Below are positions 19,867 to 59,657 of a DNA stretch of 64,000 bases, piece by piece. The stretch's first letter is position 1; each line of letters opens with the position of its first letter. The notes beneath the pieces were generated by a model, which saw only the letters and a list, made by a program, of their open reading frames with translations, was not told where the DNA came from and made no database searches. The DNA is taken from contig OX439052.1 in assembly GCA_949317995.1 (NCBI GenBank), positions 43,954,599 through 44,018,598 of the forward strand. Direction: 5' to 3'. The DNA comes from Acholoe squamosa. Its lineage: Eukaryota > Annelida > Polychaeta > Phyllodocida > Polynoidae. The translations under genes were made by a program, and so were the position numbers.

Positions 19867-20102
19867 TTAACCCTTTAAGGGTCCCTGACGCATCATGCCC
19901 ATTGGTGGCCATGATGCACCATTAAAGTGCTGGCAAGACTACTTCATCGCTGCATCATTTCGACCCTCCTGGAGTTTGTGTTTCAATCCTGGAGGGTTGG
20001 AATGATGCTCCAATGAAGTGCTGGTGAGCAGTCTTACCAGCACTTCATTGATGCATCATGACGACCATTGGGCATGATGCATCAGCGGACTTGAAAGGTT
20101 TT
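19867..20102. mobile_element. PAL, two-armed A-A copy
   Basis: TTAACCCTTTAAGGGTCCCT opens it. The left arm is shortened (AAAGTGCTGGCAAGACTACTTCATC). The right arm is intact (CCAATGAAGTGCTGGTGAGC...CCAGCACTTCATTG). CGACCCTCC and GGAGGGTTGG form the centre. Confidence 0.8.
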
Positions 20103-21129
20103 AAAAGGTGTCTTATTCTGTTCTACACTCTTAAGTCAGTCACTTGCAAAAGACCTTCCAAGGTCAAGGTCACATGGAGCGAAAGTGCCCTTAGGTTTAC
20201 CGCACATGTCACTGAGCATGTCACATGACATTGCCGGAAGACCACTAGGTAGCACCACTCACTCACTCAAAATGGCCGCCGTTTCAATAGCAACGCCTGG
20301 TCATGTGACTGACAGGTTAGGGTCTGTGTTAGGTTGACCACTTGGGTACTGGCTGAGCCACTGGCAGTCCACTCCAGGGCACTACCAGTTCTCAGCCCCC
20401 ACCCCTTGCTGGACTCCTGCTATAATCCCCCTCCAGTACAAAGTCTGGTCCAGCCACTATTGGCCAATCCCAGTCTCCTACATGCTTGGAACATAATCAT
20501 ACATTCCTATACAGGTTCACTGACAGGGGGGCTGTATAAAGCTCGATTCCCAAACTAGAAGCCCAAAGCGACATCCTACTCAGTGCACTAATATAACCGT
20601 AATTGACCGTTTAAGCCCACCTTATGAATTTCAAGTACTTTGTTCCTGTGCCTATGCAGGACCTGCACTAATTTTAAACATAGTTTTAGGTTTTAGGGGG
20701 TTATTAACCCTGCATTTAAATGAGACCCTGTGGTCAATTGAGACCCTTGTGCTTAAATGGGAAATAACTGTATATATTCTACCTCATGATAGTGTAGAAT
20801 TCTATTATGATTCACATCTGCCTTATCCAGGAATATAAAGAACCCCTCTCCTATTGTTATTAGATATATTTAGACTACTCTGTATATCCCCCAAGGCAGG
20901 CAAATATATATGCAAGCTTCCCTTGGCAAGAGGGCTTCCAAAAACACATGTATTCATCAACTGATCATGTTGAATGTAGTTTATGCGATTATGAATATGA
21001 CACAAGCTGTCCAAATGGCATTCAACAACCATTACCAACTTGTTCTTTCGGCAAGCAATAGTCTGATGTAGCCTGTGGGGAAGTATATATTGTACCTGGT
21101 CTTGTCACGGGGCTTCAAAGTGTGCAATT
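20103..21129. other. No recognised feature
   Basis: No supported gene. ACTCACTCACTC near 20257 is too short to call a SINE tail. Confidence 0.4.
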
Positions 21130-21373
21130 TTAACACTTTAAAGGCTGCTGATGAAGGAGTGCATCATGCCCATTGGTCATCATGATGCACCAACTGACCA
21201 GCACTTCATTGGAGCATCATGACGACCCTATAGGGTTAATACATATACTCCCGGAGGGTAGACATGATGCTCCAATGAAGTGCAGGCAAGTAGTCTTACC
21301 AGCACTTCATCGGTGCATCATGACGACCAATTGGCATGATGCATCAATGCATCAGCAGCTCTCAAAGGGTTAA
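21130..21373. mobile_element. PAL, 244-bp A-A copy
   Basis: TTAACACTTTAAAGGCTGCT to GCAGCTCTCAAAGGGTTAA with TTAA at both ends. The left arm lost about half of its outer side (CACCAACTGACCAGCACTTC). The right arm is complete. Confidence 0.85.
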
Positions 21374-23572: not shown

Positions 23573-24107
23573 TTAACCCTTGGAGGAACCATGGAGGATC
23601 AATGCATTATTTTATGTCAATAACTTCTTCCCGTAGAGATAGCATTACAGAGCCGATCCGCACACCCCCAGTGGCGTAACGTGTGCCGATCCACCACAGC
23701 GGCCGATCCACCACTGTAGCCTCGTTCTGGGTGCATGTAGACATTCAAAATGGCGATGGGCGCTCGTGCGGTGAACTACGGTAACGGATTTTGCCAATTT
23801 TCAGTTAATTAAACACTCTAAAAACATAAAATAAATATAGAACTAAACTCCCCTGGTGTCCTCGGTGGCCGATCCACCCCTCGGGGGGTCTCCCCTCGTG
23901 GTGGATCGGCCACCTCGTACACCACGGTCGTTGAGTTCTATCTATTTATACCATTGGTCAATGCAATGTGCAGTTGTGTTAGCACTTCTTTGATGCATCA
24001 TGATAACCCTCTGGGAGTGTATCAACCCATACGGTCAATATGATGCATGAATGCAGTCTGGCAAGCTTCTCTCCAGTGAAACATTCATGCAATACGCTGA
24101 CATTCTG
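23573..24107. mobile_element. PAL copy split by a foldback-tail element
   Basis: Left terminus TTAACCCTTGGAGGAACC and AATGCATTA lie before 23608. ACCATTGGTCAATGCAATG, AGCACTTCTTTGATGCATCA, CCCTCTGGGAGTGTATCAAC and an arm B remnant follow after 23949. The PAL copy must be older than the insertion. Confidence 0.65.
23608..23949 (+). mobile_element. Foldback-tail element, copy 2, inserted in PAL
   Basis: It is 342 bp, aligned end to end with 5011-5389 but lacking the inner GAGTTGTCTCCC hairpin. The tail stem AGAACTAA...TTGAGTTCTATC is kept. Confidence 0.75.
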
Positions 24108-24350
24108 CTAATTTCAGGAGAGCATAATGCCATTGGTCATCATGATGCACCAATGAAGTGTGGGCGCAACTCCTCACAGCACTTCCTTTGAGCATCATGC
24201 TGACCCTAAGGGGTTGATACATAAACTCCCAGAGGGTCAGCATGATGCACTAATGAAGTGCTGGCAGTCACTCTTGCCAGCACTTCAATGGTGCATTATG
24301 ATGACCAATAGGCATGATGCCCTGCTGCGCTATTGGCTCGCAAAGGTCAA
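24108..24350. mobile_element. PAL, A-A copy without left terminus
   Basis: Starts at the inner end (GCCATTGGTCATCATGATGC). The left arm A is diverged on one side; the right arm A is CTAATGAAGTGCTGGCAGTC...GCCAGCACTTCAATGG. The centre TGACCCTAAGG/AGAGGGTCAGC is kept. Confidence 0.75.
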
Positions 24351-27978: not shown

Positions 27979-28210
27979 TTAATCCTCTTAAGGCCACTGA
28001 TGCATTCATGCATCATGTCCATTGGTCATCATGATGCATGAATGCAGCCCTGGCAAGTAACTCGCCAGGCCTACATTTAGGCATCATGCCAACCCTACTG
28101 GGCTGGAACACACCCGAAGGGATGGCATGATGCTCCATTGAAGTGAGGCCGAGCAGACTCGCCAATGACATTGATGCATCTATGCATTAGCTGTTCTGAA
28201 AGAGTTTAAC
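27979..28210. mobile_element. PAL, two-armed B-A copy
   Basis: TTAATCCTCTTAAGGCCACT, arm B (GAATGCAGCCCTGGCAAGTA...CTCGCCAGGCCTACATT), centre CCAACCCTACTGGG, diverged arm A (CTCCATTGAAGTGAGGCCGA), right end GCTGTTCTGAAAGAGTTTAA. Confidence 0.8.
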
Positions 28211-31837: not shown

Positions 31838-32066
31838 TTAACGCTTTATTGGTTGCTAATACTTTAATGCATCATGCCCATTGGTTGTCATGATGCATAA
31901 ATACAGTTCTGCATTCATGCATCATGCCGCCCCAATCAGGGGTGATACACTCCTGGAGGGTCGGCATGATGCTCCAATGAAGTGCTGGTGAGCAGACTCG
32001 CCAGCACTTCATTGGTGCATCATGTCGACCATGATACACTCCTGCATCAGCAGCCCTTAAAGGGTT
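31838..32066. mobile_element. PAL, B-A copy
   Basis: TTAACGCTTTATTGGTTGCT, short arm B (AAATACAGTTCTGCATTCAT, tip deleted), centre CCCCAATCAGGGG, then intact arm A (CCAATGAAGTGCTGGTGAGC...GCCAGCACTTCATTGG) and AGCCCTTAAAGGGTT. Confidence 0.8.
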
Positions 32067-32211
32067 GGAGTCTTTAAGAGGTTTGGCTGTCTGTGGGAGT
32101 CCCTAATGGTTCATCATGGAGTATTTGCACAGCCTCTTGTAATGGAAACCTAGTTGCTGCTTTCAAGCACCAGCTGTCCTAACACTGCTTTTAGGCATTC
32201 CTTTAAATCCA

Positions 32212-32470
32212 TTAACCCTTTAACGTCTGCTGATGCAGGAGTGTATCATGCTCATTGTCATGATGCACCAATGAAGTGCTGGCAAGAGTACTCGCTAGCA
32301 CTTCATTAGTGCATCATGCCGACCCTACAGGGTCGATACATAAACTCCCTGAGGGTCAGCATGATGCACCAATGAAGTGCTGGTGAGCAGTTTTGCCAGC
32401 ACTTCATTGGTGCATCATGACGACCAATGGGCATGATGCATTATTGCATCAGGGTCCCTCAAAGGGTTCA
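32212..32470. mobile_element. PAL, well-preserved 259-bp A-A copy
   Basis: TTAACCCTTTAACGTCTGCT to CCCTCAAAGGGTTCA. Both arms A are complete (CCAATGAAGTGCTGGCAAGA...GCTAGCACTTCATTAG; CCAATGAAGTGCTGGTGAGC...GCCAGCACTTCATTGG). The centre CCGACCCTAC...GAGGGTCAGC is intact. This is a good reference copy. Confidence 0.9.
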
Positions 32471-34346: not shown

Positions 34347-34595
34347 TTAACCCTTTAGGGCCGAGGATGCATTAATGCATTATTCCCATGGTCATCATGA
34401 TGCACCAATGAAGTGCTGGCGAGACTGCTCGCCAGCACTTCATTGGAACATCATGCCGACCCTCTGGGAGTCTGTGTATCAACCCTTAGGGTCGGCATGA
34501 TGCTTTAATCAGACTACTCACCAGCACTTCATTGGTGCATCATGACAAGCAATGGGCATGATGCACTCCTGCATCAGCAGCCTTTACAGAATTAA
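34347..34595. mobile_element. PAL, A-A copy with partly deleted second arm
   Basis: TTAACCCTTTAGGGCCGAGG. Arm A left is perfect over 15+15 bp (CCAATGAAGTGCTGGCGAGA...GCCAGCACTTCATTGG). The outer side of the second arm lost CCAATGAAGTGCTGG. Right end GCAGCCTTTACAGAATTAA. Confidence 0.85.
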
Positions 34596-35200: not shown

Positions 35201-35425
35201 TTAACCCTTTAAGAGCTGCTGATGCATGAGTGCATCATGCCCATTGGTCATCATGATGCACGGATGAGGAGCCGGCAGGTCTGCTTACACTGCATTGGTG
35301 CATCATGATAACACTTCGGAGTGTATCAATAGGACCGGCATGATGCATGCATAATTCAACCGATTCATGCATGGTAACAACCAAATGGCAAAGTGATATT
35401 AGCAATATGGGATCTTTAAAGGGTT
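35201..35425. mobile_element. PAL, A-B copy, arms shortened
   Basis: TTAACCCTTTAAGAGCTGCT, arm A-like GGATGAGGAGCCGGCAGGTC, CACTGCATTGGTGCATCATG, then CCGGCATGATGCATGCATAA and GGGATCTTTAAAGGGTTGA. Confidence 0.75.
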
Positions 35426-36095
35426 GATTTGTTATGAATAGGCCCTCACCTACCATCCTCTCCTTTTACCCTGAACTAAACTTATAAATACCCCAGGTTA
35501 TTGTCTCCCTCTCTCCTGTAAAATGTCAGAGGCCACCTAGAATTTAAATCTTCAGTGCCCACATTGGTACTGTTCGGAGAATCTTTCAGTTGGTGATAGT
35601 AAAATGAAAGTGACCTATGGATATGCAATCTTGATTTTAGACCTCTTGTCAAATACATGCACGGGTCACCATTATTTTCCTACTCTAATAGCCCACAGCC
35701 ACTAGCATCTCAAACCCTGTAAGTCAGAGCAGTTACAATTGATCATAGGCAGCTGCTTTACCATTACAAATGTAGTCAGGGAGATGGGGTCTAGACTAAC
35801 CCCCCGCCCCTTCTTCCGGCCTGTACTTCAGAGTCTATTCGCTTATTTCAGAACCCACATTTTCCTCAGAAATCAGGTTGCACCCTCCTTTTGGCCTGTG
35901 CCCCCACCTTTTCAATACCCTGGATATGTCAATAATCTCTGCTTTGCCCTTCCCCTGAACTGCCTCCTCTGCCCTTCCGGCTTGGTCTGGAAGAGGCACC
36001 AGGGTCCTGCAGTCTGCCCCAGTACAGGTACTCAAAGTTCATCATCCTGCCCCAATCCTGATACACCCTTCCTGTCCTGACGCCCCTAAGTTGTC
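35426..36095. other. No recognised feature
   Basis: No supported gene. The frame at 35739-36080 is pyrimidine-rich and has no recognisable domain. Confidence 0.35.
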
Positions 36096-38947: not shown

Positions 38948-39046
38948 GAAAATCCCTCTCACCAAGGGTCACTTTTGGTCTCGGGACCAGTCACACACCC
39001 GTTTCAGTACAAAGCTCCCCCCCCTGCATCATCCACTGCATCACAA

Positions 39047-39124
<78 letters not shown>

Positions 39125-39219
39125 ATCCCTCTCACCAAGGGTCACTTTTGGTCTCGGGACCAGTCACACACCCGTTTCAGTACAAAGCTCCCCCCCCTGC
39201 ATCATCCACTGCATCACAA

Positions 39220-39293
<74 letters not shown>
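38948..39293 (+). repeat. Exact tandem duplication, two 173-bp units each ending in a TA array
   Basis: Units 38948-39120 and 39121-39293 appear identical, both GAAAATCCCTCTCACCAAGG through CATCACAAGTACATATAT plus about 70 bp of TA. The word AAATCCCTCTCACCAAGG also occurs at 38811 and, with one change, at 38839. Confidence 0.9.
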
Positions 39294-39297
<4 letters not shown>

Positions 39298-39929
39298 AGC
39301 TTTATTGTGATGCTTGGTAGATTTAACATATCAGTTCTTTGAGTGTGGGGAGGTGGGGTTGGTGCATACAACTCTATTGTAAGGGCCACTATAGCCAATC
39401 TTTTCATACCCAACCTTCAGCCTCTGACCCCTAACCCACCACCAACTCGCCCGCTTTCACACCCCTCCCCCCAACCCCCTGCTCTCCTCCTATGGGAATA
39501 AGTGAATGTGGGAAAGGTAACGTGTGAACTTGACCCTATTCCCAATGTATATGATATCTCCTACATATCATATCTATCACATTTCTTGCACACCCATCTC
39601 TGCAATTCTGTTTCTGAAGATCCCAGCACAGTGTATCGCTGTGAAGCAACTCGCGGCGGTTTCCCTTCCTCACTTTATTTCTTTGATTGTTGCTCTCTTC
39701 TGTCCTTGTATCCTCCTTTTCTCCCTTTTTTTGAGTTTGAAATAATGTTTATAATTTGAACTTCTCACTAATGAATAAAAAGTGGTAGATTGAAGAACAG
39801 CTCTCTATACAAATTCATACTTTCGCTTGTCTTCGACACGCATCTCCAAAATGGTATCAATTATCTTGACATCTCAATATTCATCCTCCCTGACCATTTG
39901 GTCAATACCAATTACTGTCCGTCTGTCCA

Positions 39930-44494: not shown

Positions 44495-44711
44495 TGTAAC
44501 CCTTTCAGCATTACCAACCACTAAAATATAACGACCATAACGATGCATCAAAATCACTTAACTTTGTTAAATTGATTTACAAATGCAGGGATGGCAAGTC
44601 TACTCACCACCATTGCATTAGTAATGTATCAACCCCAAAGGGTCAAAATGATGGATTTGTGAATATAATTGTAGTCGTACCTCATGACAACCAATGGGCT
44701 TAATGCATTAA
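44495..44711. mobile_element. PAL, decayed copy sharing its right TTAA with the next
   Basis: TAACCCTTTCAGCATTACC, CTCACCACCATTGCATTAGT, GTATCAACCCCAAAGGGTCA, GACAACCAATGGGCTTAATG. It ends at TTAA 44708-44711. Confidence 0.55.
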
Positions 44712-44869
44712 CCCTTTAAAGGCTGCTGATGCATTTATGCATCATGCCCAATAGTTGCCATGATGCACCAATGAAGTGCTGGTGAGCAGTCTCCCCAGCA
44801 CTTCATTGGTGCATCATGGCGACCAATGGGCATGATGCACTCCTGTATCAGAGGTCTTTAAAGGGTTAA
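44708..44869. mobile_element. PAL, 162-bp one-armed copy, nearly a perfect palindrome
   Basis: TTAACCCTTTAAAGGCTGCT to AGGTCTTTAAAGGGTTAA, TTAA on both sides. The single arm A is CCAATGAAGTGCTGGTGAGC...CCCAGCACTTCATTGG. The two halves pair almost throughout. This is the best one-armed unit in the window. Confidence 0.95.
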
Positions 44870-49790: not shown

Positions 49791-49922
49791 TAGCCTGATG
49801 AATGGGTGCTGAAGATTTAAGGGTGTGATACGAGAGAGATTAGGGCTGGAAGGAGTCCATAGTGGATAGGGAGTGTGTAGGAAATGGGGCTTAGTGTTAA
49901 CTATGTATAGACAATGAAGGAG

Positions 49923-50196
49923 TAACCGTTCGAGGGTTGGTAATGCATTAATGCATCATGCCCGTTGGTTGCTTGGCATGATGCATGAATGCAGCCCTGG
50001 TGAGTAGCTCGCCAAGTCCACATTCCTACAGTACGCTGATCCTATGGGGTTATTACACTCACAGAGGGTTGGTATGATGCTCCAATGAAGAGCTGTTGAG
50101 CAGACTCACCAGCACTTGGACGTCATGTTTGGGTGTATCATGACGACCAATGGGCATGATGCACTCCTGCAATAGCACTAGCAACCCTTAAAGGCT
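49923..50196. mobile_element. PAL, two-armed B-A copy
   Basis: Arm B (GAATGCAGCCCTGGTGAGTA...CTCGCCAAGTCCACATTCC), centre GATCCTATGG...GAGGGTTGG, arm A with an insertion in its return side (CAGCACTTGGACGTCATGTTTGG), right end CAACCCTTAAAGG. Confidence 0.75.
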
Positions 50197-50349
50197 TATT
50201 AAGGTAGGCTGAAGAATGGGGTGTGACGCCTAGGTGCAGAGAATTAGATGAAGTATTAATGAATGAGGTGTATAATTATTTTATGACTGAGCTATTGGGG
50301 GATAACATTGTGGCTAACAGCTGATAAGGGTATAGATATAGGTAGTGGC

Positions 50350-50797: not shown

Positions 50798-51116
50798 AAC
50801 TTCAGTTAGCTCTTTGTGGGCAGCAAGCTCACAAACTTAAGTTAGCTCTTTGTGGGCAGCAAGCTCACAACTTCAGTTAGCTGGGCTTCCCTAGCCACTT
50901 AAAAGGGTCTACTTCTCATCTTTCCTATCCCCTCAGGATGTGTGTGGTGCACATATGTGCGGGCACTGACACATTCCTCTGTGAAATTGTGTAATGTCGT
51001 TCTCGCCATGAATATGACCTCAGCTGTCGAAATGGCGTTAAACATCTATTACTCACTCACTCACTTCAGTTAGCTCTTTGTGGGCAGCAAGCTCACAACT
51101 TTAGTTAGCTCTTTGT
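50798..51116 (+). repeat. 37-bp tandem repeat array interrupted by a SINE-like insertion
   Basis: CTTCAGTTAGCTCTTTGTGG GCAGCAAGCTCACAA repeats about four times, two before 50883 and two after 51063. Confidence 0.85.
50883..51063 (+). mobile_element. SINE-like element with 12-bp target duplication
   Basis: Starts GGGCTTCCCTAGCCACTTAA and ends ATCTATTACTCACTCACTCA. CTTCAGTTAGCT flanks it at 50871-50882 and 51064-51075. The duplication and (CTCA)n tail indicate LINE-type retrotransposition. It may equally be the 3' end of a LINE. Confidence 0.8.
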
Positions 51117-53450: not shown

Positions 53451-55714
53451 TGACAAGGATCTCTTAAAGAGCGGCTGACACCAGTGGGGTAGTCTACTCA
53501 AAATGGGACTCTCCTCGTGAAATCACAGAACCCATTTCTATTATGTCATTAAGGGTACCTGAGAAATAGGGATTCATATTCTAATGAACAAACAGAAGTC
53601 AGTTCCGAACAATGAGGCAAGCCATATTGAAATTTGCCTGAGCTCATCACAAGCATTGTTATTGCCCTGTTGAGCATTGAAAGCCTTTCATATCATGGCT
53701 TTATAGTTATTAACCACATGTGCTATTTACTGGATACATGTAAATTAATAGAACAGTGACAGTTGGTGGACAAACTAATGAAATACACATCTATATCTAT
53801 GGATAATACCCTTTTTAGTGCTGGGTGAAAGCTGTCAGTATACTATTAGCACTAAAACATACTCTCATGCTATATTTTGGAAAATGTCACTTCCTTGGAT
53901 CATATTATGAGGAAGTCCTGAGTGCCTCGAGGGCATTCTCTGACACTTGCAGCCTTCTTGTCTGGGATCTGAGCAGCAATCTTGTTTTTTTGTGGTCCTC
54001 TCAATATTAATTAATGATAATTGTGATTAAGTGATTGTGTTGTAAATATGATGCAGAACAACCTTGTCGCCATGGATAATCCTACATGAGGGAGCCATCG
54101 TAGTCACTGCAGTGGCCATGACAGTTCGAGCGATAACATCGCTCAGACACCTCCGAACATGGTCTCCTGGAAGCCATTAAAAACATCACAACACCATAAA
54201 AAACATACTCTAGAAATAAAAGTTTATGTCTCTTTGTGATGGCGAACTCTGGTACTTAGGTCAAAAACCGCACTGGTTTAACAGAAAGGATATGCAACTA
54301 TCATCATCTAATCTGCCACAGAGCTTTTTTTTCTGAAAGTTGTCTGTTGTGGTGAAATATCGTCTGCGTTTTCCCGCTGAAAACTCCCAACCTTTCAGAT
54401 GTAGGTCAAGTTCGTTTGGAAGGCCTAGATAATGGAGGAGTGATGTACATTACCCAACAATCTCAGCAATTATCAAGTTTAGGGGGATTCTGGGAAATGG
54501 TTGTAGAGATGAACGAAGATATCTTGAGCAGTGAAACTAGCGCAAGGTGTTCACAGTTTGGACGCAGGAAGCACTGGGGATTACGTAGTGCGTTAGTCTC
54601 GGGGGGATTAGGGCTGCGGTTCGAGTCGCTAATCTACTCCAGCCTGAAGCAAACTTCACAGATTATCACTTGGATCCTGTGCCTGGATTAACACGATTAA
54701 TTGGCCTTATTATCGTCCATAACAGCCATAGCTCACCACGGGTAGCTTTACCAGCCTCACACATCTAAATTATATCAACTAATACACCCATTTTCTTCTG
54801 TTTTTTAATGTAAAATTTCTGGTTTTATTTCATCTTTCATCAAATTATATTAGAAAACCAGCCATAATGCTGCTCTACTAGTAACAATAGCTACCAGTAT
54901 ATACCTCTTGTTGCTAGTGTTATATTGATTCCAAGAATCTTAATTTACTGGGGAGGAATTGATGGAATTTAGTTATCAACCTTTTGAGTAAAAAGTTATA
55001 ACTATGGTGAAATAGCTAAAATTTAGATAATTTATTATCATACTAGGCACTGACATTGGATTTACGTCTGCTGGACTTTATCTTGTCCCGTTGAACACAT
55101 GATAAACCTGATAGTATCTAAGATGTTTTAGTCATATATAAAAACTTTGATACACAACCCCTCTCTATCCCTCTCAGCAATATTCATGGTATCACATAAT
55201 CATAACATGTGATGCAATATACCTGGATTACGTTATTTTACATGCGATATATAGTATCCATAGTTTTAGCAGTGACTCTCACCACCGGGAGTCTTCTTAG
55301 AGGCTCTACTTCCGGTCTGTGTCACTCTCCAAGCTTGAGACCAACCTTCTTCACTCTCCAATCAGAGTTTATGTGTGTTAAACAAATAAACCACTTATAC
55401 AAGGAGTGGTTCAAAACCAAGAGTGTGAGCCAATGAGAAGTGAGCAATACATTACGTGATTGCATCTATAAATAGCATTTATGGTATATAGGTTGTGTTA
55501 TTATCAAATCACGTGACCACCTATCCCAACATGCCTCTGATAACACGGCCGCTGGAAGTGTCGTCGACCAAGGCGCTAGGTGTGTCCCCCTGTACTTCTA
55601 TGTCCGGATCATCTTGTGTGGTGACGTTGACGTTACTACCCGCTCTAGTCACGTGTTCGCTAAGTCGCCTCTGGTTGGTCCTCCTCTACATGACTTGTAT
55701 GTGTGCTATTTCAG
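53451..55714. other. Unique-looking DNA upstream of the Ig exon
   Basis: Presumably intron. No exon with Ig character was found on scanning. GGTTCGAGTCG near 54617 resembles a tRNA B box but has no cloverleaf around it. Confidence 0.4.
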
Positions 55715-55999
55715 ACTTACCCAGAGTTCTCAGTATGCCAGTGAGGATCTACCTTCCCAAAGGTATGTCAGGGCGAGTGCTGTGTCCAGTCGAGGCCAAC
55801 CCGCCAGTGACCCTCATAGTATGGACACGAAATGAGCGGGTGATTGACTTCACACACACGTCGCGACTCAAACTGAGTAAAGACGGGACACTGCTTATAA
55901 AGACTACGGAGCAGGCTGACGAGGGACGGTACACCTGCACACCCTACTCACCGCTAGGGGCGGGACGCAGCTCCACCGTGGTTCAGATCATCGTAAGAG
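55715..55999 (+). CDS. Internal exon encoding one immunoglobulin domain, turtle/IGSF9-like (partial gene)
   Basis: The 285-nt exon is preceded by a pyrimidine-containing acceptor ending TGTGCTATTTCAG and followed by a GTAAGC donor. It starts with two bases of a split codon and ends with one, so it is phase 1-1, the usual arrangement for Ig-domain exons. The 94 full codons carry the Ig hallmarks: Cys at residue 23 (LCPVEANPP context), Trp at 36 (VWTRN), and DEGRYTC at 68-74 with the second Cys at 74, followed by TPYSPLG. The CPV-x-ANPP, VWT and YTCTPYxxLG pattern is what I recall from Ig domain 3 or 4 of turtle/IGSF9 cell-surface proteins, which mediate neurite and synapse adhesion. That family assignment is from memory. 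The upstream open reading frame from 55495 is intronic read-through. No neighbouring Ig exon was found within the window, so the gene must have long introns or extend beyond it. Confidence 0.85.
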
Positions 56000-56401
56000 G
56001 TAAGCCTGAAATTACTTATACCGGAAAACTCTGTGTTTAAGATGTGGATTATTCATATAAGCAAAGATGGACTCATAGTAAGGTTTATAGGACTGGCAAC
56101 ATTTACAGGTGCGCCTTATAGGTTTATATTCCTTTGTTGTGGATGATACAATTTTCATTAGATTTGTATATCTGCAAGGAGTTAGATCTCCTCCAGCCCA
56201 AACCAAAGTTTCACACATAAAACAAAATGTTCACTGTTCATATTGGATAAGTTCAAAAATTGGTTCATACTGAACCCAAAGTACACTTTTTGAGAGCCCT
56301 CTCAAATGAAGATGTGCGTTGTAAGTGAAGCATGCCCTGTACACAGTTTAATATGATTCTACAATCTAAATACTGTGAAGACTTATCTCAGACCCTGGCA
56401 T
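56000..56401 (+). other. Presumed intron after the Ig exon
   Basis: Begins with the GTAAGC donor. AGGTGCGCCTTATAGG at 56108 is a fragment of the GCGCACC-ended family. Confidence 0.5.
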
Positions 56402-56692
56402 TTAACCCTTTAAAGGCGGCTGATACAAGAGTGAATCATGCCCATTGGTCAGCATAATGCACCAATGAAGTTCTGGTGAGTTCTTGCCAGCACTTCATTA
56501 GAGCATTATGCCGACCCTCCGGGAGTATATGTATCAACCCGTAGGGTCGGCTTTCTGGGGATGTATCAAGGCAAAATGTTCGGCATGATGCATTAATGTA
56601 GCTCTGGTCTGTTTCTTGCCATGGGTGCATTCATGCTTCATGACGACCAATGTGATTCATAAAGTGCATTAATGGCCCCCAAAGAGTTATAC
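56402..56692. mobile_element. PAL, A-B copy
   Basis: TTAACCCTTTAAAGGCGGCT, arm A (CCAATGAAGTTCTGGTGAGT...GCCAGCACTTCATTAG), centre CCGACCCTCCGGG...AGGGTCGGC followed by an extra 45 bp, arm B (TTAATGTAGCTCTGGTCTGT...), right end GGCCCCCAAAGAGTTA. Confidence 0.8.
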
Positions 56693-56768: not shown

Positions 56769-57001
56769 TTAACCCTTTAAGGCGCCATTATGCATTAACC
56801 CAGTCTGCTAATGTAGGAATGTATCATACAGTGCTAATGTAGGAATGCATCATACAGTGCTAATGTAGGAATGCATCATACAGTGCTGGGTATTCTGCTC
56901 ACCAGCACTTCTATGGTGCATCATGCTGACCTGCACAGAGTGCATCAACGCCTATAGAGTCAGAACGATGCATGATGCATTGAAGCATCATTGGCCCTTA
57001 A
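56769..57001. mobile_element. PAL copy containing a 26-27-bp triplicated segment
   Basis: TTAACCCTTTAAGGCGCCAT. TGCTAATGTAGGAATGCATC ATACAG occurs three times at about 56808-56886. Arm A half and centre follow. It ends TTGGCCCTTAA, the TTAA being the first of the next copy. Confidence 0.8.
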
Positions 57002-57246
57002 CCCTTTAAGAGCCGCTGATGCATTAGTGCATCATGCCCATTGGTCGTCATGATGCACCAATGAAGTGCTGGCGAGACTGCTCATCAGTACTTTATTGGA
57101 GCATCATGCCGACCCTCTGGGAGTATTTATATTACCCCAATAGGGTCAGCATGATGCTCCAATGAAGTGCTGATGAGCAGTCTCAGCAGCACTTCATTGG
57201 TGCATCATGACAACCAATGGGCACGATGCACTCCTTTAGAGGTTTA
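56998..57246. mobile_element. PAL, well-preserved A-A copy
   Basis: TTAACCCTTTAAGAGCCGCT, two arms A (…GTGCTGGCGAGACTGCTCAT… and …GTGCTGATGAGCAGTCTCAG…), centre CCGACCCTCTGGG...AGGGTCAGC. The last 15 bp of the right terminus are altered (CTTTAGAGGTTTAA). Confidence 0.9.
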
Positions 57247-59290: not shown

Positions 59291-59657
59291 ACCCTCTAAG
59301 GGCCACTGATGCATTAGGGCATCATGCCCATTGGACTGTATCAACCATGTCAGGTCAGGATGATGCGTAAATGCAGCCCTGGCGAGTAACTTGCCAGGGC
59401 TGCATTCATACACCCTGACAACCAATGGGCATGATGCATTAATGCATCAATCGTTAACTTTAGATGCACTAATGAAGTGCTGGTGAGCAGTCTCGCCAGC
59501 ACTTCATTGGTGCATTATGACGACCCTACTGCATTGATACATATATACTCCCGGAGGGTCGGCATGATGCTCCAATTAAGTGCTGGTGCGCAGTCTCACC
59601 AGCACTTCCTTGGTGCATCATGACGACCGATGGGCATGATGCATTAATGCATCAGCT
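59291..59657. mobile_element. PAL, three-armed B-A-A composite
   Basis: CCCTCTAAGGGCCACTGATG, arm B (AAATGCAGCCCTGGCGAGTA...TTGCCAGGGCTGCATTCAT), an internal end GGGCATGATGCATTAATGCA, then arm A, centre CGACCCTACTG...GAGGGTCGGC, arm A, and GGGCATGATGCATTAATGCA again. Two copies seem fused end to end, with ATCAATCGTTAACTTTAGAT at the joint. Confidence 0.8.

Follow-up and report, generated by a model that had tools for sequence, protein, structure and literature searches.

Foldback-type elements carry long inverted repeats with self-complementary arms. The repeat family that we describe here, PAL, resembles them in its long self-complementary arms and differs in being short, in inserting at TTAA and in falling into few length classes. 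The coral CMITEs, MITE families of piggyBac type, resemble PAL in their TTAA duplication, their mostly CCCTTT tips (family II, CCCTTTAAGCCCTA), their occurrence in tandem arrays and their insertion into another element's TTAA; they are ~100 bp long with terminal inverted repeats (TIRs) of 13–14 bp, whereas PAL comes in classes of 162, 263 and ~364 bp with perfect arms of ~119 nt and nested, countable hairpin modules (PMC2872659). The same source gives CC[C/T]T as the piggyBac/TTAA terminal motif and 12–19 bp as the usual length of piggyBac TIRs, and records tandem arrays both of TTAA MITEs and of an internal portion of one.

The T. ni piggyBac element shares the TTAA target with PAL (PMC7351741), and T. 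ni piggyBac and Myotis piggyBat both have a tip palindrome bound by two cysteine-rich domains (CRDs) and repeated end sites (PMC7351741, PMC11707139). The T. ni CRD dimer binds a palindrome at bp 17–33 with a narrowed groove centred at ~bp 25 (PMC7351741), an imperfect palindrome close to the piggyBat tip has the same role (PMC11707139), and adding a third CRD site to an engineered piggyBac doubled integration (PMC7351741). Unlike these two elements, PAL encodes no protein; its ends are symmetric and its palindrome has a distinct sequence. Native T. ni transposase shows no activity in cells on symmetric LE35/LE35 ends (PMC7351741), so PAL would need an enzyme that tolerates symmetry. Within the same genome, the piggyBac element L013 has TTAACCC ends and, at its 3′ end, a near-perfect 18-bp palindrome at bp 16–33, as in PAL; unlike PAL it is 2.7 kb long with a broken transposase frame, and its tips match those of PAL at 8–9 of 17 bases.

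We analysed a window of 64,000 nucleotides (the whole stretch of DNA presented here, C18:43,954,599–44,018,598) of the Acholoe squamosa assembly (1.48 Gb in 63 contigs, 18 of them totalling 1,478.6 Mb). By the features tested, PAL is a striking, unusually elaborate case within the known piggyBac/TTAA MITEs, and the window needs no new kind of element. Structures of piggyBac transpososomes offer a frame for interpreting the odd architecture of this non-autonomous element.

Extent and modular anatomy of PAL

The PAL end TTAACCCTTTAAAGG, allowing up to 2 mismatches, matches the window (GC 40–46%) 33 times, against a mean of 0.16 and a maximum of 2 in 100 shuffles. Profile searches delimit 70 non-overlapping PAL pieces; they sum to 10,595 bp, a 16.6% share of the window (68 pieces and 11,418 bp under our first PAL model). 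Among the interspersed repeats encountered there, PAL is the largest. Genome-wide, a 24-base arm motif with at most 1 mismatch occurs 19,107 times forward and 19,192 times reverse (38,299 in all; reversed control, 0); 14 + 16 of these matches lie in the window, a density ~18 times the genome mean. With up to 3 mismatches, a 47-base end yields 2,072 + 2,067 = 4,139 near-intact ends (control, 0). A consensus search of the genome gave 3,229 first-look candidates, and the 40 that were scored are all full or near full length, at 85–91% identity and on both strands. Extrapolated roughly from window bases per arm match, PAL would total ~13.5 Mb, ~0.9% of the genome.

The earlier note had described a transposon family that dominates the window with more than 45 copies. 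The TTAA duplication, the nested insertions and the thousands of near-intact ends bear out the family; dominance is upheld in the sense of the share of bases and the arm-motif density, and the copy estimate was too low, not too high. Viral contigs hold no exact arm-motif match, and our literature search, judged from titles and abstract openings, recognised no description of the family. On C1 the arm-motif matches listed seemed to fall into runs of one strand, a pattern that we discarded as an artefact of the list: it lacks an exact reverse-strand match that L090 contains.

Four copies had been singled out as intact. Their presence, the kind of their ends and their inner hairpins stand; the 3′ ends of three of them are altered. 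The near full-length, two-unit copy at 32212–32470 (forward strand, as are its parts) has TTAA on its 5′ side and the tetramer TTCA on its 3′ side. Read against the consensus, its tip-proximal palindrome site (32231–32248) is an asymmetric GGAG variant; a first 60-bp hairpin unit (CATGATGCACC...GTGCATCATG) follows at 32259–32318, then the 41-bp centre of a 101-bp module (32319–32359) and a second 60-bp unit (32360–32419) that starts 101 bp past the first. The two-unit copies at 34347–34595 and 56998–57246, both forward, have an altered and an eroded 3′ end, respectively, and the forward one-unit copy at 44708–44869 (162 bp) has TTAA at both sides. TTAA likewise flanks both sides of 21130–21373 (reverse). 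Further forward copies lie at 19867–20103 (3′ tetramer TTTA), 35201–35427 (TTGA), 49922–50199 (end tetramers altered) and 56402–56690, which at 289 bp exceeds the 263-bp class; further reverse copies lie at 27979–28208 (TTTA), at 31838–32068, 143 bp ahead of the 32212 copy, and at 1053–1296, adjoining the PAL piece 902–1053.

The 261-nt consensus derives from an alignment of 44 best-scoring copies, a sample biased by their selection for completeness. Its arms are complementary without mismatch over ~119 nt, far beyond the usual TIR length, and enclose a centre of ~25 nt; the source element was symmetric. From the tip CCCTTTAAGGGC, which carries the CC[C/T]T motif, each arm runs inward through CCCTTTAAGGGCCGC, the palindrome TGATGCATTAATGCATCA (a perfect 18 bp at bp 16–33), a linker and the 60-bp hairpin unit. 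The word TGATGCA occurs three times per arm, in the tip palindrome and on the outward side of the 60-bp hairpin unit. GGAG often replaces TTAA mid-palindrome in one or other arm of the copies, which leaves many of them with a single perfect palindrome site. PAL is short, non-coding and homogeneous in length, with a high copy number.

The module of 60-bp hairpin and 41-bp centre (101 bp) is present one to three times. The two hairpin units of an element start 101 bp apart, and one-, two- and three-unit elements (the last being L088 and L090) fit 101-bp steps. The 172 unit chains in the sequence examined comprise 94 with a single unit, 72 with two and 6 with three, in loci mostly picked as full-length copies and with decayed neighbours scored as single units. 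Two three-unit chains with ~100-bp spacing lie in the window, with no strand assigned, at approximately 24035–24300 (unit centres 24065, 24170 and 24270) and 59356–59622 (59386, 59491 and 59592). In L088, units 1 and 2 have derived changes in common, a likeness that suggests tandem duplication in place. Each hairpin unit has a mismatch at its ninth base pair, and in the consensus this difference is mirrored around the element centre, which suggests that the hairpin unit may predate the whole palindrome.

Target sites and probable kinship with piggyBac elements

Two ends are recognisable in 49 of 63 full-length copies. TTAA stands on both sides in 23 of these 49; exact TTAA at both sides is absent in the other 26, in our reading through decay. 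L060 (TTAC/TTAC) and L004 (TTAG/TTAG) have the same non-TTAA tetramer at both sides, as expected of a duplicated target. When the flanks are joined, they reconstitute a host PAL on both sides in 4 of the 49 (L067, L077, L060 and L050), above all 49 shuffled controls; a looser profile test flagged 8 nested copies, not all of which hold up. The insertion points of three of the four nested copies fall at host TTAA 9, 234 or 252. TTAA at both sides, nested copies and the CCC tip together fit a MITE of the piggyBac superfamily.

TTAA occurs six times in the consensus itself, a density of 22.8 per kb where window sequence other than PAL has 6.1, so each copy is a rich target. PAL pieces cluster in the window, with 16 gaps shorter than 60 bp against 5.2 expected and none of 2,000 random placements as high.

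Profile PF13843 has 90 matches in the genome, which we grouped into 38 positions. Both ends were read in three piggyBac elements, and each of these ends carries TTAACCC. In PAL, the dyad centred at 24.5 reaches 9 of 10 (shuffle p ~1e-4). Five of the 11 piggyBac ends scored have a dyad of at least 7 at this same centre: L009_5 (7), L013_3 (9), L011_3 (7, from a relative of L013), famA (8) and famF (7), the last picked from 8 candidate sites (7 distinct) partly for its dyad, so that its p is not independent; some of these dyads had been noticed by eye before the scripted scoring. The other six (L009_3, L010_5, L010_3, L013_5, famB and famE) show no strong dyad there, the famB and famE ends possibly not being true element ends. 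Counted by family, four of the seven same-genome piggyBac families with ends read have a dyad at PAL's spot on one end. The PAL palindrome thus occupies the position of the CRD-dimer site of piggyBac, at a distance from the tip that recurs on one end in several families of the same genome. The tip sequence is closest to famF (13 of 17 bases; 4–9 for the other ends), and a piggyBac gene with PAL's own ends was not found among the ~7 families read, of 38 positions.

Several further observations concern piggyBac loci. Position 1221 of L048 (reverse) is a TTAA element end whose first 16 bases, TTAA included, are identical to famF, with a 14-bp palindrome that on reading is centred 24.5 bp from the tip. 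PAL-like pieces in the piggyBac loci L024, L025, L027, L028, L031 and L035 do not seem to lie at element ends and are taken as old insertions. In L027, L031 and L035 they separate stretches of coding sequence in a multi-copy piggyBac-like group, and their places correspond between L027 and L031. Tandem arrays beside piggyBac genes (L011, ~1–230; L012, 3257–3424) are built on TTAACCCTTTATGGAT, with GCATGATGCATTGATGCA in addition in L011, and form a satellite resembling PAL ends.

We consider it highly probable that PAL is a non-autonomous cut-and-paste MITE of the piggyBac/TTAA superfamily; an enzyme of piggyBac type very probably mobilised it in the past. In the mechanism that we propose, a piggyBac-type transposase would recognise the CCC tip, and a putative transposase dimer would bind the 18-bp palindrome at bp 16–33 of either symmetric end. 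The element would be cut out and inserted at TTAA, with duplication of that target. Its nested hairpins would be inherited from a source in which the 60-bp unit and 41-bp centre stood one to three times between symmetric ends, and each copy would decay freely once inserted. Self-targeting at the copies' own TTAA sites may account for part of the density, and copies would have piled up in the outer chromosome parts. A tentative extension, which we think unlikely as a whole, treats PAL as a natural, symmetrised, multi-site piggyBac substrate: hairpin units might recruit extra transposase dimers, gain or loss of 101 bp might tune mobility, and modules and copies alike might multiply at recombination-rich chromosome ends. 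The extra-dimer idea draws on the presence of TGATGCA in both tip palindrome and unit and on the analogy with the third CRD site.

Fold, decay and age

The earlier note had pictured the single strand as able to fold into a cloverleaf closed by the element ends. We folded the refined consensus as single-stranded DNA (261 nt plus closing AA); one long hairpin reaches −176.0 kcal/mol, against −115.8 kcal/mol for a composed cloverleaf in which the end stem was imposed and the interior folded locally. On this deficit of 60 kcal/mol we reject the cloverleaf as the main fold: the consensus prefers a long hairpin to nested side hairpins. The first consensus gave a long hairpin of −154.6 kcal/mol (z −30.7), and a long hairpin is likewise the fold of the window copies 32212–32470 (z −17.2) and 44708–44869 (z −16.7). 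The two 60-bp units, folded singly, give −33.6 and −33.8 kcal/mol. Among 28 near-full copies, the unconstrained fold is better than a local-only fold in 24 and equal in 4; in some decayed copies, such as 31840–32066 and 1056–1296, the local hairpins alone are as good as the best fold. As modelled, the local hairpins could form as fast alternative folds, and the cloverleaf could form as a clearly less stable one. The further claim of a layered foldback beyond usual MITEs survives in the unusual degree of its layering, whereas tip palindromes and tandem TTAA MITE arrays are already on record in the sources cited above.

We compared changes across the paired positions of the copies with a rough coupling test, in which the rows of this near-symmetric element took their orientation from the score and the centre is reversed in about a third of them. 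Long-hairpin pairs show no coupled change (42 compensatory cells observed, 53.1 expected), and we accordingly rejected the idea that the two long arms evolve in step. The hairpin-unit region alone gives 19 against 17.3. Local-hairpin pairs give 22 against 8.7, with 11 of these at four pairs of the CpG-bearing tip; these four hairpin-tip pairs explain only half of the local excess. In our reading, the fold is a property of the source element.

Non-CpG K2P distance to the consensus has a median of 0.159 (0.067–0.309) for the 49 window copies longer than 100 bp, and K2P a median of 0.067 (0.030–0.143) for 44 high-scoring copies outside the window. Given these medians, the PAL burst does not look recent.

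Chromosomal distribution and competing explanations

PAL is concentrated towards chromosome ends. Taking as distal the outer 20% of either chromosome side, with an expected share of 40%, we find 71 of 79 PAL ends distal among the matches listed at up to 2 mismatches (not counting a hit on the small contig C57), 36 of the 40 full copies among the scored candidates, and 87 of 100 exact ends among the matches listed, which reach C18. The controls give 10 of 38 for piggyBac positions, 11 of 43 for exact copies of a SINE-like repeat among the matches listed (one on the small contig C41 left out) and 13 of 35 for its one-mismatch copies on C1, again among the matches listed. The SINE-like control was picked for adjoining PAL copies and for its presence in the window, a choice that would if anything favour distal positions. 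The distal crowding of PAL, without counterpart in this control, is a clean case of family-specific chromosome-end accumulation. As to its cause, we can offer only conjectures, such as recombination or less efficient removal towards the ends.

Three other explanations bear on these data. PAL could belong to another TTAA-targeting superfamily and share only the target with piggyBac. Kolobok and Sola3 likewise duplicate TTAA, and a PAL-ended piggyBac gene was not found among the ends read; we nevertheless regard such membership as very unlikely, for PAL has its CCC tip and a palindrome centre at bp 24.5 in common with piggyBac elements of the same genome. It is highly improbable, to our minds, that PAL spread in the manner of a dispersed satellite, chiefly through replication or recombination driven by its hairpins (template switching or unequal exchange) and with little transposase activity. 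The module number of 1–3 in ~101-bp steps, the derived changes shared by L088 units, the clustering of pieces (16 short gaps against 5.2) and the distal bias would all suit such a process, and yet four-base duplications and nested insertions at TTAA speak against it, as do the flanks of 49 copies, which by eye are unrelated except where one PAL lies in another.

We find it barely credible that the fold, as a cloverleaf, is an RNA or DNA structure under selection in the host. The low z of the first consensus (−30.7) and the local-hairpin compensatory changes (22 against 8.7) are what selection on structure might leave; against them stand the 60 kcal/mol lead of the long hairpin, the uncoupled long arms, the absence from the window of any tRNA (ARAGORN, bacterial code) and of any Rfam match that reaches the gathering score, and a divergence of the measured copies from the consensus of K2P 0.03–0.31. 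A piggyBac/TTAA MITE whose hairpins came with its source is the explanation that we retain.

Other features were noted along the way. The SINE-like repeat, at ~50880–51060 in the window, has a TCAC-rich tail, and 103 of its bases match the genome 819 + 814 times with up to 2 mismatches. In L002, a tandem array of ~53-bp units (~1650–2100) begins within a PAL copy. A 173-bp tandem duplication with 100% match and a long AT run inside occupies 38948–39298 of the window. The contig C63 carries COX1, with 11 internal TGA codons; judged by eye, this COX1 looks lophotrochozoan. On the forward strand of the window, an open frame at 55492–56040 encodes an immunoglobulin domain (Ig_3, E 2e-8; I-set, E 2e-7) and is probably part of a cell-surface protein gene.
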